Position numbers and translations under genes: made by a program. 64,000 bases of DNA from Pseudomonadales bacterium. GTDB lineage: Bacteria; Pseudomonadota; Gammaproteobacteria; Pseudomonadales; Pseudohongiellaceae. Below, one piece after another: positions 4,752 to 56,199 of this stretch (positions are counted from its first letter, which is position 1; every line of letters starts with the position of its first letter). The notes below the pieces were generated by a model. The model had not been told where the DNA came from, did not search any database, and worked only from the letters and a program-made list of their open reading frames with translations. The stretch covers positions 1-64,000 of the forward strand of contig JALQUB010000026.1 of NCBI GenBank assembly GCA_023268635.1, in the 5' to 3' direction.

Positions 4752-5873
4752 GTGACAAGAACAAGCAGAGGAAATGCTTTGACGACCAGTAGCCCAGCAA
4801 AAAAAGACTTAGTGGACCAGGCGGGAAACATTCGAGAGGGCGAAGAGCTCGACCTCGATGTGCTGCGACAATATTTGGAACCTATCTTGGGATCCAAAGC
4901 ATCCAATTTACAGCTTAAACAGTTCCCCGGTGGGTTTTCTAATTTAACCTATTTATTGAGTAGCGGCGATGAGCGCTGGGTGCTGAGGAGACCCCCGTTC
5001 GGCAGCAAGGTGAAATCGGCTCATGATATGTCGCGAGAATTTAAGATTCTATCGGCGTTGGAGGGAGTGTTCCCATACGGGCCGAAGCCGGTACATTTTT
5101 GCGATGATCAATCGGTGCTCGGCTGCGATTTTTATTTAATGAGTTATATCGAGGGGTTAGTTATTCGTAGAGAGTATCCTGCGGCCCTGAATTTTTCCGC
5201 TGAACAGGTGCGCGAGCAGCTGTTTAATTTCTTCGATGTGCTGTCTGAGTTGCATTCTGTAGATTTGGTTGAGGCGGGTCTGGACACGTTCGGACGACCA
5301 CAAGGTTATGTTCAACGACAAGTGGACGGTTGGTGTAAGCGCTGGATGGATGCGGTCACGCCTGATACGGTGAATTGCGATTCGACGATGCAGTGGTTGC
5401 AAGACAATATGCCTACCGAGAGCGGTAAGGCGAGTGTGATCCACAACGATTACAAGACGGACAATGTCATTTTTTCACTAGAAAACCCGATGCAGGTCAT
5501 TGGCATTCTAGATTGGGAAATGGCCACGGTGGGCGACCCACTCATGGACCTTGGTTGCACCCTGGGATATTGGGTGCAGATGGATGACCCTGATTTCTTT
5601 CGTCAATATCGAACGATGCCGAGTGATGTCCCGGGCGCGCCTACACGTGCTGAGATCGTGAGTCGCTTTCAAGAAAAGACAGGACTGTCCGTTGATAATT
5701 TCGCATTCTATTTCGTGTTCGGTTTGTTCCGTTTAGGAGTGATTGGGCAGCAGATTTATTATCGTTACTATCACGGCCTGACTAAGGATGAGCGCTTCGC
5801 GATGATGGTAAACAAGACCGACGTGCTACAACGGATGAGTGAAATGATTATGCGCGGTGAAATCACTTCATAA
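4752..5873 (+). CDS. APH/choline-kinase-fold phosphotransferase, ACAD11 N-domain-like
   Basis: 373 aa kinase-fold protein. 'GGFSNLTYLL' near residue 58 fits the nucleotide-binding loop. 'HNDYKTDN' is the catalytic H-x-D-x4-N loop, and 'LDWEMATVGDP' supplies the metal-binding Asp. Animal ACAD10/ACAD11 fuse such a domain to an acyl-CoA dehydrogenase and process 4-hydroxyacyl-CoAs by phosphorylation. Here the kinase-like and dehydrogenase genes are separate but in one run, which makes a similar role possible (inference). The start is uncertain: GTG at 4752 has a weak upstream site, while TTG at 4779 follows AGAGGA at good spacing and would remove nine residues. Confidence 0.82.
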   Translation: MTRTSRGNALTTSSPAKKDLVDQAGNIREGEELDLDVLRQYLEPILGSKASNLQLKQFPGGFSNLTYLLSSGDERWVLRRPPFGSKVKSAHDMSREFKILSALEGVFPYGPKPVHFCDDQSVLGCDFYLMSYIEGLVIRREYPAALNFSAEQVREQLFNFFDVLSELHSVDLVEAGLDTFGRPQGYVQRQVDGWCKRWMDAVTPDTVNCDSTMQWLQDNMPTESGKASVIHNDYKTDNVIFSLENPMQVIGILDWEMATVGDPLMDLGCTLGYWVQMDDPDFFRQYRTMPSDVPGAPTRAEIVSRFQEKTGLSVDNFAFYFVFGLFRLGVIGQQIYYRYYHGLTKDERFAMMVNKTDVLQRMSEMIMRGEITS

Positions 5874-5929
5874 TTACCTTCGAGCTATGAAATTTATTAA
5901 CTAAAAGTAACTCCCGAGAGGCATGAAAC

Positions 5930-6721
5930 ATGAACTTAGCATTGAATGATCTGTTCTCAGTGGCCGGCAAGGTTGCCGTCGTCACTGGTGGATCTCGGGG
6001 TATTGGCAAGATGATCGCTACTGGTTTTGTCGCCAATGGTGTGAAGACCTATATCACCGCTCGCAAGGCCGAGGCTTGTCTCGAGACCGCAGAAGAGCTT
6101 TCAGCGCTAGGTGAGTGCATCGCATTGCCGGCCGATTTATCGACGAAAGAGGGGCGAGAGGTATTCGTCAATGAAATCAAAGCCCGTGAGAATAAGATCG
6201 ATATCCTAGTGAATAATGCGGGCGCGGCATGGGGGGCGCCATTCGAGGAGTATCCCGACGAGGGCTACGATAAGGTGATGGATATTAACGTGAAGGCGAT
6301 ATTCACACTCACACGCGACCTCATGCCCTTGTTGACTCAAGGCGCGAGTCAACAAAATCCAAGCCGTGTGATCAATATTGGTTCGATCGATGGTCTCCGA
6401 GTCTCGACGATGGATAACTTCGCTTACGGTGCGAGCAAGGCTGCGGTGCATTTTTTGACAAAGAATCTCGCATTGCGTCTTGGGCCGAAGGGCGTCACCG
6501 TGAATGCAATCGCTCCTGGTGCTTTCCAGAGTCATATGATGAATGCGACTCTCGAAAAATTTAAGGACAAGATCGAAGACGAAAATCCATTGGGTAGGAT
6601 CGGCTCGCCAGAAGATATGGCGGGATTGGCGCTCTACCTCGCCTCTAATGCCTCGAGGTATATGACGGGACAAGTTATCGCGTTAGATGGTGGTCGCCAT
6701 ATAGGTGCACGCCAAGATTAA
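5930..6721 (+). CDS. Short-chain dehydrogenase/reductase
   Basis: 263 aa classical SDR. The N-terminal Rossmann motif is 'TGGSRGIG'. 'NNAGAAWG' is the conserved NNAG element, Ser is in 'INIGSIDG' and the Tyr-Lys pair is in 'YGASKAAV'. 'APGAFQSHM' is the PG element after the active site. Likely reduces or oxidises a 3-oxo or 3-hydroxy group with NAD(P)(H). It lies 56 bases after the phosphotransferase gene and is probably part of the same acyl-CoA catabolic run. It resembles FabG-type or 3-hydroxyacyl dehydrogenases but the substrate is not determined by sequence. Confidence 0.88.
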   Translation: MNLALNDLFSVAGKVAVVTGGSRGIGKMIATGFVANGVKTYITARKAEACLETAEELSALGECIALPADLSTKEGREVFVNEIKARENKIDILVNNAGAAWGAPFEEYPDEGYDKVMDINVKAIFTLTRDLMPLLTQGASQQNPSRVINIGSIDGLRVSTMDNFAYGASKAAVHFLTKNLALRLGPKGVTVNAIAPGAFQSHMMNATLEKFKDKIEDENPLGRIGSPEDMAGLALYLASNASRYMTGQVIALDGGRHIGARQD

Positions 6722-36890: not shown

Positions 36891-37292
36891 ATGAAAAAAA
36901 TAGGGGAGACTGAAGTTGAGTTTTCCGCCATCCGCGCGAGTGGCCCCGGGGGGCAGAATGTGAATAAGGTCTCCACAGCGGTGCAATTGAGATTCGACTT
37001 CGAGCGTGCGCGCATAGCTGTGTCCGATAAGGCTCGAATCCGTGCGACGCGCGATGCGAGAATCATTTCCTCGGGTGAGATAGTCATCAAGGCTCAGCGT
37101 TATCGTAGTCAAGAAAAGAATAAGCAGGATGCGCTGGATAGGCTTAATCTGTTGTTAGCGAAGGCGACCGAGGTGAAGGCGGCTCGCATCCCTACTAAGC
37201 CCACGCGGGGAGCCAAGGAGAAACGTTTAGAGAGCAAGCGTAATATCTCTGATAAGAAGTCGACACGGCGAGTGGTGCGCGATTATGAATAG
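36891..37292 (+). CDS. arfB: Peptidyl-tRNA hydrolase ArfB (stalled-ribosome rescue)
   Basis: 133 aa. The RF-1-like catalytic domain carries the Gly-Gly-Gln at residues 20-22 in 'SGPGGQNVNKV'. There is no codon-recognition domain, and a basic C-terminal tail (about 100-133) would enter the empty mRNA channel. It releases nascent chains on non-stop ribosomes. The length and N-terminal start of the GGQ domain match ArfB (YaeJ) rather than RF1/RF2 or PrfH. Divergent from the transporter operon; the next gene overlaps by 8 bases. Confidence 0.92.
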   Translation: MKKIGETEVEFSAIRASGPGGQNVNKVSTAVQLRFDFERARIAVSDKARIRATRDARIISSGEIVIKAQRYRSQEKNKQDALDRLNLLLAKATEVKAARIPTKPTRGAKEKRLESKRNISDKKSTRRVVRDYE

Positions 37293-37725: not shown

Positions 37726-38910
37726 TTAGTAGACTTCGAAGAGACCTGCTGCCCCCATGCCTCCGCCGACACACATCGTGCAGACAACGTATTTAGCACC
37801 GCGACGCTTACCCTCGATGAGTGCGTGGCCTACCATGCGAGCACCGCTCATGCCGTAAGGGTGTCCGATAGAAATAGCACCTCCATTCACATTGAGCAAT
37901 TCGTCAGGGATGCCGAGTTTGTCGCGGCAGTAAAGTACCTGCACGGCAAAAGCTTCGTTCAATTCCCACAAGCCAATGTCTTCCATCTTGAGCCCATTGG
38001 CGGCGAGCAGCTTAGGTATCGCAAACACGGGACCGATACCCATTTCATCAGGTTCGAGGCCTGCGACAGCGATACCACGATAAGCGCCGAGAGGATTCAG
38101 TCCGCGCTGTTCCGCGAGCTTGCTGTCCATTAGGACAGAGGCAGAGGCACCGTCGGATAGTTGGCTAGCATTGCCAGCGGTGATGACGCCACCCTCAATG
38201 ACTGGCTTCAGGCCGACTAGGCCTTCGAGGGTAGTTGTGGGGCGATTGCCCTCATCTTTCTCGAGCATGACGTCATGGACGCTCTGTTGCTTAGTCTCTT
38301 TGTCCATGAACAACATCTTAGATGCCATGGGGACGATTTCGTCATCAAACTTACCCGCTGCCTGAGCTGCCGCTGTGCGTTGCTGGCTTTGCAAAGAGTA
38401 TTCGTCCATCGCGTCGCGTGAGATGCCGTAGCGTGCCGCGACGATTTCGGCAGTCTGCAGCATAGGCATATAGGCATGCTCTGAACGTGCTACCACGTTG
38501 GGGTCGATGGCTCGATAGCCATTGCGATGCTCGTTCTGAACGAGGCTGATTGACTCTAGGCCACCACCCACGACGATTGGCATGCCGTCGACTATGATTT
38601 GTTTAGCCGCTGTTGCGATGGCCATCATGCCGGAGGCGCATTGTCGATCCATGCTCATGCCAGAAACGCTGGAAGGCAATCCTGCAGCAACACCCGCGGT
38701 GCGGCCAATGTTTTGTCCCGAAGAACCTTGCTGCATCGCACAGCCCAAGATGACGTCTTGGATTTCAGCGGGGTCGACGCCCGAGCGCTGTACCGCCGCT
38801 GCGATGGCATGACCGCCTAATGTTGGGGCGTCGGTGTCATTGAATGCGCCGCGATAGGCCTTGCCGATAGGCGTTCTTGCTGTGGATACGATTACTGCTT
38901 CTCTAGTCAT
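37726..38910 (-). CDS. Acetyl-CoA acyltransferase (thiolase)
   Basis: 394 aa degradative thiolase. The nucleophile is in 'DRQCASGMM' near residue 90. 'NEAFAVQ', '[16 protein letters not shown]' and '[10 protein letters not shown]' complete the active site. It is last in an operon with the UGSC selenoprotein (49 bases upstream) and the thioredoxin-fold protein. Whether it works with them or is simply co-transcribed is unknown. It is distinct from the thiolase at 14467. Confidence 0.9.
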
Positions 38911-38959: not shown

Positions 38960-39493
38960 TTAAAGCTCGTGCGCGGCTGGGCTGCAGACGAGTCTAGTGA
39001 TTTGTTCGATGGCATCACGCGCCAACTGGGCCATTTCCTCGTCATTTCGATCCTGGATAGGATGTGGGACGAATAAGCTAGCCGGTGTAATCCCTAATGA
39101 GCGACCTTGTGCCGCCGCTGCTTCAACGAACTCAGTCGAAGCGATGAAAGCGGAGGGTAGGCCGCGGCTTTCTAAGTTCATGATGTCATGCAAACTGCAC
39201 GAGGTACATGATCCTCAGTCCGCGAGTCCTTCTATGACTGCATCGCATTCTGAGCTGATTCTTTGTGTAAGCTCTAAGGGTGCGGTACGTGCGAACGTCG
39301 GTTTAGCATAACGACGGACTCTAGCGCCCAGAGCCTTCAGCTGGCGCTCGACTTCGTCGAGGAATTCCTTGCCGCGGGGCTTGGAAATATCTAATAGGCC
39401 GATTGTCGCACCCGTCAGTGTCGTCAGCCTAGGCAAAATTTGCCTTTCGACGGGGCGTAGCTCAGCGGTAGGGTCTAGAAGGATGGTGTGCAT
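38960..39493 (-). CDS. UGSC-family selenoprotein, read through an in-frame UGA (Sec93)
   Basis: 177 residues when the UGA at 39217-39215 is read as selenocysteine. Read conventionally it splits into a 92-residue ORF and a later fragment. ATG at 39493 behind AAGGAG. The first half has an alternating strand/helix pattern ('GATIGLLDISKPRGKEFL', 'CDAVIEGLAD'). The UGA gives D92-U93-G-S-C96-T-S-C99-S-L-H-D, the hallmark from which the UGSC family takes its name. U93-x2-C96 is a redox-type motif. The frame continues unbroken for 84 residues after the UGA, ending 'ITRLVCSPAAHEL'. A SECIS-like hairpin follows the UGA and selC is in the same window. No biochemical function is established for the family, as far as I know. 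It lies between a thioredoxin-fold gene (37 bases) and a thiolase gene. A nonsense mutation is the alternative, and is much less likely. Confidence 0.92.
39180..39217 (-). promoter_or_regulatory. Bacterial SECIS-like hairpin at the UGA-Sec codon
   Basis: Directly after the UGA (39217-39215), UCGUGC (39202-39197) pairs with GCAUGA (39191-39186), six pairs including one G-U, around the loop AGUUU. AUG (39209-39207) and CAU (39182-39180) can extend it across an internal loop. Eighteen bases separate UGA from the loop and the second loop base is G. Both agree with the usual bacterial SECIS rules (16-37 bases, a G in the first two loop positions), which guide SelB to the codon. Confidence 0.75.
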
Positions 39494-39530
39494 AGCTCAC
39501 TCCTTGGTTTTTTGTATAGCGAACAAAGTG

Positions 39531-40979
39531 TTACGAGAATGGCTGTGAGGCAAGTTGGCTGCCCCGTTCTCCGGAGGCTACCCAACCGCCGATAATGGCT
39601 GAAAACATGCCTGCTGTCCCTCCTAGGGAGACAATGTGCAGGCCGTCGTCTCTGAATTTATTGAGTATCTTGTCTTTAAATTTTTCCGGCATGCCTTCTG
39701 CGATACCGTCGGCGCCGCGAACAACAGCTTCTCCGGGCGTCATGAGAGCATTGTAGAGGGCGGTGCGCAGATCTTCCTTGGACCAACCCGCTTGCTTAAA
39801 TACTCTGCGGTGCTCGGGCGAGACTATCAGAATCGCGTCAGCCAAACCAAATAACTTGTTATGTGCCACGCTTCTCAGGCTCGCAGCAAAACTGAGCGAG
39901 AGTGATTCTGGGGTGCGTGACTGTTGGTCAACAATGCCCTGTAGCCCCTCTCCAGCGAAGACGCTGACTACAGATTCGTTGCGTGAATAGCCCCGGTCCT
40001 GCGCGAGTGTCGGCCAGTCTGGATCGGATTCGTCTTCGGCAAAACAATAGCTGTATTTTCCTGGGTTGCCCAGAGTTGCGCGGTCTATGCCTCCCGGGAC
40101 GCCGCCGCCGACATTGCGAATTAATAATTGCAACGCTCGGCCAATGGTCGCATTCGCCCGATTGCCCTGACCCAAAGCATTAATGCCCGAGTTCATGCCA
40201 ATTCGCTTAGCGACTGGGCCATTCACGATGATCACCGGGGAGGAGAAATAGGTGGTGCAGAGAAGACCGTGCATACAGAATTTATCCTGCAGCGCTGCTT
40301 CCACTGATGCCAGCACAATGGGGAAGTATTCTGGCTGGCAGCCGGCTAACACGGCATTGATCGCGACCTTCTCGATGGTGCACGACATATTATCGGGTGG
40401 AATGAGCCCAATGACTTCATCCGCCGCTCGGTCGGTTCCGTGAAGCATCCGTAGGACGCGGAGCGGGGTTGGTGGAACCACTGGCAAGCCGTCGCTCCAG
40501 CCGCGGTCAAAACAGGCCTCGATGTCATCTTCCGATGCCGCGAGCTCAACCTCTCGCGACACCATCTTGCGCTCTCCGTACTTGAGTTCCAGGACTTCGC
40601 TCATGCCTGGGTCTTGGCTTTTGGAGCCGCAGCCAGGTTTAAATTCGATGAGTTCGGAGGCGAGCTCCGCTATCGAGCTCAATTCTCGCCATAACTGCCT
40701 ATCCCAACCTTGGGTTCGGGCATCTTGCTCGGCGGTCGCGCCATGTCGAATTAGTGTTGGGACGACTTCGATGTTAGCTCGATAGGAGTGCTCTAATTCG
40801 CTGTCGTCAATCGCGATACCCCCTTCCGGGAAGCTCGGGTCATCCTGCGAGTAGATCGTCAATGCGACATTGGGAGCAGCGCGTAGTTCATCGATCACAG
40901 GAAGGATGAGTTGGCAGGTGGGGCAATCACGCTTTAGGAAGAGTGAATAACGTGTGTTGACGGACTCGGGGCTGGTCAC
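39531..40979 (-). CDS. Thioredoxin-fold protein with a large uncharacterised C-terminal domain
   Basis: 482 aa, GTG start at 40979. Residues about 10-110 are thioredoxin-like: 'LFLKRDCPTCQLI' supplies a C-x2-C pair (Cys19, Cys22) and 'EVVPTLIRHG' the cis-Pro (Pro74). From about residue 140 a second domain begins, with 'RGWSDGLPVVPPTPLRV' as its clearest feature and several cysteines (Cys200, 214, 235, 241). 'NVGGGVPGGIDRATLGNPGK' and 'SLGGTAGMFSAIIGGWVASG' are glycine-rich segments. I recall similar domains near UGSC proteins in uncharacterised bacteria but know no assigned function. No signal peptide, so cytoplasmic. It precedes the UGSC selenoprotein gene by 37 bases, so a thioredoxin/selenoprotein electron-transfer pair is a reasonable hypothesis. 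Confidence 0.8.
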   Translation of the reverse strand: MTSPESVNTRYSLFLKRDCPTCQLILPVIDELRAAPNVALTIYSQDDPSFPEGGIAIDDSELEHSYRANIEVVPTLIRHGATAEQDARTQGWDRQLWRELSSIAELASELIEFKPGCGSKSQDPGMSEVLELKYGERKMVSREVELAASEDDIEACFDRGWSDGLPVVPPTPLRVLRMLHGTDRAADEVIGLIPPDNMSCTIEKVAINAVLAGCQPEYFPIVLASVEAALQDKFCMHGLLCTTYFSSPVIIVNGPVAKRIGMNSGINALGQGNRANATIGRALQLLIRNVGGGVPGGIDRATLGNPGKYSYCFAEDESDPDWPTLAQDRGYSRNESVVSVFAGEGLQGIVDQQSRTPESLSLSFAASLRSVAHNKLFGLADAILIVSPEHRRVFKQAGWSKEDLRTALYNALMTPGEAVVRGADGIAEGMPEKFKDKILNKFRDDGLHIVSLGGTAGMFSAIIGGWVASGERGSQLASQPFS

Positions 40980-56105: not shown

Positions 56106-56199
56106 GGAAGAGTATCTCCCCCGGTGGGGTGCCCGGACTTCAAACCCGGTGAGGTTTGTTAAACAGGCCTGGTGGGTTCGACTCCTGCCTCTTCCGCCA
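56106..56199 (+). tRNA. selC: tRNA-Sec (anticodon UCA)
   Basis: 94 bases including an encoded CCA. The anticodon loop is CTTCAAA, with UCA reading UGA. GGAAGAG pairs with CTCTTCC in the acceptor stem, the discriminator is G, and the T loop TTCGACT is the same as in E. coli selC. A long variable arm, AGGTTTG with CAGGCCT around TTAAA, is the mark of tRNA-Sec. I count only seven clear acceptor pairs where eight are usual, and an A-C mismatch next to the anticodon loop. It supports selenocysteine use and therefore the reading of the UGA at 39215-39217. An integrase gene begins 158 bases downstream. Confidence 0.93.
56177..56199 (+). other. Candidate attachment site (attL core) at the selC 3' end
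   Basis: The T loop and 3' acceptor of selC lie against an outward-reading P4-type integrase, the arrangement in which such integrases recombine into the tRNA 3' end. The core would be within these bases. The matching attR copy must lie beyond base 64000, as I did not notice a second copy in the window. Confidence 0.45.

Follow-up and report, generated by a model that had tools for sequence, protein, structure and literature searches.

The window (the whole 64,000-nucleotide stretch of DNA that we analyzed) almost certainly contains a gene for a UGSC-family selenoprotein, with its selenocysteine encoded by UGA. The gene is at 38960..39493 on the minus strand. Translating this frame with TGA as selenocysteine (U) gives 177 residues with a single U, at residue 93, and then a stop codon. 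The UGA itself is at 39215..39217 (minus strand), and the motif around it is D92-U93-G-S-C96-T-S-C99-S-L-H-D. An AAGGAG ribosome-binding site, read from the sequence, is found 6 nt 5' of the ATG start codon (39500..39505, minus strand). A preliminary description of this locus, which gave no strand, had proposed one frame running from an ATG with a good ribosome binding site, through an in-frame UGA within D-U-G-S-C-x2-C-S-L-H-D, and on for 84 more residues; the product would have 177 residues with U-x2-C and C-x2-C motifs. Our translation reproduces each of these features. The same description predicted that standard gene calling would split the gene, and mechanical ORF calling does yield two ORFs, of 92 and 77 amino acids. 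(Any gene caller that takes UGA as a stop will split the UGSC gene.)

The read-through protein exceeds the cut-offs of both models for this family: it scores 145.7 bits against NF041046 from NCBIfam (cut-off 125) and 146.5 bits against PF24696 from Pfam (cut-off 25). With the UGSC motif and its UGA-coded Sec in place as well, the original family assignment holds. Taken separately, the two halves reach 50.7 and 58.4 bits against the UGSC model, aligning to profile positions 2–68 and 77–145. Because each half falls below the cut-off and they match separate parts of the profile, this is the pattern expected of one split protein. Given the full-length match over both cut-offs and the Sec-bearing motif, nothing essential differs between this protein and the known UGSC family, and the gene is an ordinary member. 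Matches to PF24696 are found in 3 of 274 genomes across the class, with one TGA apiece. In Pfam searches at E up to 10, UGSC has no convincing relative outside its own family; the next-best match is 3HCDH_N, for 7 of 36 members, with a best E of 0.016. There was no Cys form of UGSC among the sequences that we fetched; a passage in an earlier survey counts 255 Sec forms and 21 Cys forms (PMC2398784). According to a passage in another study, UGSC accounts for 8.2% of the selenoprotein genes in an enlarged Global Ocean Sampling set (PMC9402790).

A scan of genome contigs gave 47 relatives, with 55–89% identity. The preliminary description had proposed checking whether homologs align across the UGA: all 47 do, and all 47 have TGA at the Sec position. 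Among 59 genomes from the taxonomic family, UGSC is present in 25, with 32 matches, and each of the 32 contains exactly one TGA. Furthermore, on either side of the UGA, most nucleotide changes are at third codon positions. Upstream of the UGA, the relatives differ from the window at codon positions 1, 2, and 3 in 1034, 746, and 2406 cases (3759 codon comparisons); downstream, the corresponding counts are 835, 474, and 2022 (3430 codon comparisons). (Our alignments of UGSC are A2, with 36 of the 48 sequences after near copies and L048 were dropped and the end of L037 was shortened, and A3, in which 28 of the 48 were kept.)

The UGA is followed by a SECIS-like hairpin, which is apparent from the predicted fold, the pairing, and fixed synonymous codons. 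The core of the hairpin (39186..39202, minus strand) begins 12 nt 3' of the UGA, and the fixed codons give it the stem UCGUGC/GCAUGA and a loop that contains a G. For instance, the codon for Ser98 is TCG in all 47 sequences that have serine (the remaining one has threonine), and the codon for Cys99 is TGC in 48 of 48. The codon for Cys96 varies (TGT in 34 sequences and TGC in 14). Overall, eight conserved codons among the first eleven after the UGA show less variation than 63 conserved codons elsewhere (P = 8e-5, Mann-Whitney test); one codon upstream of the UGA, that of Glu88, is nearly as fixed. When the hairpin stretch from the window was shuffled, only 2 of 200 shuffles folded as well or better. 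Across 28 sequences, the stem is paired in 99.4% of cells, versus 0–51% if the stem is slid. We found no compensatory changes in these 28 sequences (in no pair have both bases changed), and for covariation the stem scores no higher than shuffles (467 of 500 reach the same score). So the support for a putative SECIS hairpin directly after the UGA comes from pairing and from the constraint on codons.

The preliminary description had also proposed looking for selA, selB, and selD in the genome, and this was borne out in part. Both selA (511 bits, over the cut-off) and selD (284.3 bits, cut-off 125) are present. There is also a tRNA-Sec gene with anticodon TCA at 56106..56199 on the plus strand, which was identified by ARAGORN and scores 66 bits against Rfam RF01852 (gathering score 47). 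This gene shares the window with UGSC, about 17 kb apart. We did not find selB in the genome's assembly (95 contigs, 89.39% complete), where the best match to the selB model, at 107.1 bits, falls short of the cut-off (242.25). (We take the gene with this match to be a cysN-like gene; it adjoins a cysD-like gene.) However, selB is over the cut-off in all 12 of the other genomes that we sampled from the same genus. Across the 59 family genomes, selB is over the cut-off in 26: in 23 of the 25 with UGSC and in 3 of the 34 without it (P = 4.6e-11, Fisher's exact test). The two genomes with UGSC and no selB are the window's own and G280 (480 contigs, 90% complete). Because selB is so regular in the genus and in UGSC genomes, its absence here is likely an assembly gap. 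In another genome, at L067 (4620-6890, minus strand), selD is encoded as an ORF of 756 amino acids. TIGR00476 covers its C-terminal part, and its N-terminal part resembles an NADH-dehydrogenase domain. The ORF resembles the Ndh-SelD fusions that are named in a passage of PMC2398784.

If the UGA were a true stop, then the locus would hold two short genes or a pseudogene, as ordinary gene calling has it, and the failure to find selB in this assembly would fit. But termination at this codon is hard to square with a TGA in 47 of 47 relatives whose protein sequence is conserved on either side, with fixed codons and a hairpin 3' of it, or with changes downstream that are still concentrated at third positions. 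We consider it very improbable.

In 47 of 47 loci, another gene, which we will call the partner, lies upstream of UGSC. In the window, the partner (39531..40979, minus strand) encodes 482 amino acids and is 37 nt from UGSC. Among the 59 family genomes, the partner is found in some form near all 32 UGSC matches, and in all 25 UGSC genomes. The partner protein has an N-terminal thioredoxin domain with a CPTC motif (residues 5–103 match thioredoxins), followed by a large and very conserved domain that matched no family in Pfam or NCBIfam. A profile search of the N-terminal domain against solved structures found thioredoxins, along with weak rows for ATP-citrate synthase (E = 0.73–0.77); the list of structure matches for the partner is filled by the thioredoxin domain. 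For the alignment of partners (A1), 33 of 48 sequences were used, after dropping near copies, fragments at the ends of contigs, L011, L013, and L018. (The partner gene of L018, at 4789-5979, is interrupted by stops in the frame that we read; it is broken or misassembled, in a metagenome-assembled genome.) We also considered that UGSC and the partner might be homologous to each other, and rejected this (P = 0.31 in a profile comparison).

Other arrangements of these genes were also seen. In L070 (581-2575), a divergent UGSC domain, with the motif U-S-S-C, is naturally fused to the large domain of the partner; the fusion is directly behind a truncated thioredoxin-reductase gene. A fusion of UGSC with a conserved domain, Unknown_1, is described in a passage of PMC2398784. 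L070 is a fusion of this kind, and Unknown_1 is likely the large domain of the partner. In a second subfamily of UGSC (L077, L078, L079, and L081), the partner lacks the thioredoxin domain. A crotonase gene is nearby in three of these four loci (not in L079); the one at L081 is badI-like, is upstream, and scores 433.1 bits, against a cut-off of 467.6. In three genomes from one genus (L075, L076, and L080), the gene order is partner-UGSC-selA-selB, and in L037 (from Noviherbaspirillum suwonense DSM 26001, which is in culture), L039, and L048, selA or selB is also close to UGSC.

In the window's own clade, the neighbors of UGSC are a thiolase and an ABC transporter. The thiolase gene (37726..38910, minus strand) is 49 nt downstream of UGSC and belongs to the acetyl-CoA C-acyltransferase subfamily (410.9 bits against TIGR01930, cut-off 240.55). 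A thiolase is downstream of UGSC in all 34 near-clade loci (L002-L035), whereas none of the 13 distant loci has one in the DNA examined. (Beyond the thiolase is an ORF of 133 amino acids with a GPGGQ motif, at 36891-37292 on the plus strand, which resembles a ribosome-rescue hydrolase.)

Because the UGSC motif resembles that of GrdB, we compared UGSC to GrdF, GrdH, other GrdB-type sequences, and PrdB. The Sec forms were taken from plasmid records, and the Cys forms (GRDB) were 7 matches from a search of 398 genomes in the phylum. A 42-row UGSC profile matched seven Grd/Prd sequences with Sec (P = 9.3e-7, probability 91%). In this alignment, Sec is placed on Sec, both cysteines are in register, and an HPI segment is placed on a YPL/HPL segment. 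The UGSC profile also matched two PrdB sequences alone (P = 2.5e-4) and all 14 GrdB, PrdB, and Cys-form GRDB proteins together (P = 3.9e-6, score 48.6). As controls for the 14-protein comparison, 60 column-shuffled alignments had a maximum score of 16.3, and the reversed alignment scored 21.4. For the seven Cys-form GRDB proteins alone, we obtained P = 0.0063 at first and P = 0.0028 with a larger set of UGSC sequences. Single UGSC subfamilies match GrdB/PrdB as well (P = 7e-6; 7e-5 to 3e-4). When an HMM for UGSC was run over 2349 sequences, ranks 1–41 were pieces of UGSC and ranks 42–52 were solely GrdB, PrdB, or GRDB proteins; the best of these had E = 7e-6, 3e-4, and 8e-4, versus E = 0.3 for the best reversed decoy. 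Masking the Sec and Cys columns, or the whole motif, weakened the match to P = 0.0025–0.005, in the same register. From these profile comparisons, we regard homology between the C-terminal half of UGSC and the Sec domain of GrdB/PrdB as probable. We do not file UGSC as a member of the GrdB/PrdB family (PF07355), because none of 36 UGSC members match that model at E up to 10.

UGSC shares U-x2-C with GrdB, GrdF, and GrdH (of glycine, sarcosine, and betaine reductase) and with PrdB (of D-proline reductase). The third cysteine is also found in GrdB, whose motif is given as UxxCxxC in a passage that also describes its companion GrdA as thioredoxin-reduced (PMC13188914). However, UGSC is half as long as GrdB, and the bacterium with the UGSC gene studied here is related to Pseudohongiella and OM182 rather than being a clostridium that ferments amino acids. 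Its neighboring partner is also unrelated to the GrdG, GrdI, and PrdA sequences that we tested. (We had considered a pyruvoyl-type partner, as in GrdE/PrdA, and dropped this idea: comparing the partner to five GrdE/PrdA-type sequences gave P = 0.055.)

The predicted model of UGSC has alternating strands and helices, with structure matches that are flavodoxin- and receiver-like, and the fold looks like a flavodoxin-like alpha/beta domain. As for a thioredoxin fold of UGSC itself, the model and the best matches look flavodoxin-like instead, though such a list of matches does not exclude any fold. The UGSC profile found nothing better than E = 0.93 among solved structures. The top match in both structure searches was residues 67–213 of PDB 8s7v_H, which belongs to the activation complex of methyl-coenzyme M reductase; the matches ranked just below it are nearly as good, so the resemblance may be no more than that of a common fold.

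By analogy to GrdB, we propose that UGSC is most likely a GrdB-like reductase that would be recycled by thioredoxin. A specific mechanism in which UGSC and the neighboring partner act as a two-part enzyme, with reductive cleavage as in GrdB, comes a little short of an even bet. Sec93-x2-Cys96-x2-Cys99 would form a site where a helix of the flavodoxin-like domain begins. The large domain of the partner would hold or activate the substrate for attack by the UGSC selenolate, with reductive cleavage of a bond. A selenenylsulfide would then form with Cys96 or Cys99, freeing the product, and the CPTC thioredoxin domain of the partner would reduce this again and restore the selenol. Several results count against this mechanism: the weaker profile match after masking, the modest match to the Cys-form GRDB proteins, the lack of PF07355 matches, a partner that is unrelated to the pyruvoyl subunits, and the second UGSC subfamily, whose partner lacks the thioredoxin domain. 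The reaction and the roles of the parts are modeled on GrdB, with its UxxCxxC motif and its thioredoxin-reduced companion GrdA. The thiolase, crotonase, and ABC-transporter neighbors hint that the substrate might be an organic acid or a CoA thioester.

We also considered that UGSC might be a general thiol-disulfide or peroxide oxidoreductase, and that the thioredoxin of the partner just reduces it, with no GrdB-like chemistry. The U-x2-C redox motif and the CPTC domain of the partner would be expected, and the literature does group UGSC with thioredoxin-like selenoproteins. However, the predicted strand-helix model, which has flavodoxin- and receiver-like matches, speaks against this, as do the profile matches to GrdB/PrdB; furthermore, the extra large, very conserved domain of the partner would be superfluous for a simple disulfide reductase. 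So we view a general oxidoreductase as unlikely, if worth keeping in mind. A role in handling selenium or in regulating the Sec pathway would explain why UGSC is next to selA and selB in L075, L076, and L080 and close to one of them in L037, L039, and L048, and also why selB is so much more common in genomes with UGSC. But any Sec protein has to track selB, and selB also occurs in three genomes that lack UGSC. Within the clade of the window, UGSC has the thiolase and the ABC transporter as neighbors instead. A selenium-handling or regulatory factor is therefore quite improbable.

Beyond the preliminary description, our analysis adds the partner gene, the linkage to selA and selB, and the relationship to GrdB/PrdB. 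The passages on UGSC in the open-licence selenoprotein literature mention no partner gene, selA-selB linkage, or GrdB homology, apart from the Unknown_1 fusion (PMC2398784), and the passages that name the family give no function for it. Returning to the proposed GrdB-like reductase, it is possible, and we say so with hesitation, that UGSC provides the catalytic Sec domain in a new class of reductases, similar to GrdB/PrdB but found outside the anaerobes that ferment amino acids. The partner would contribute a new domain for binding the substrate and, in most of the lineages here, a thioredoxin of its own; in some lineages, this module would move with selA and selB. UGSC is among the orphan selenoprotein families that are most abundant in aquatic metagenomes, and its probable link to the glycine and proline reductases, together with its constant thioredoxin-bearing partner, gives a concrete and testable idea of its function.
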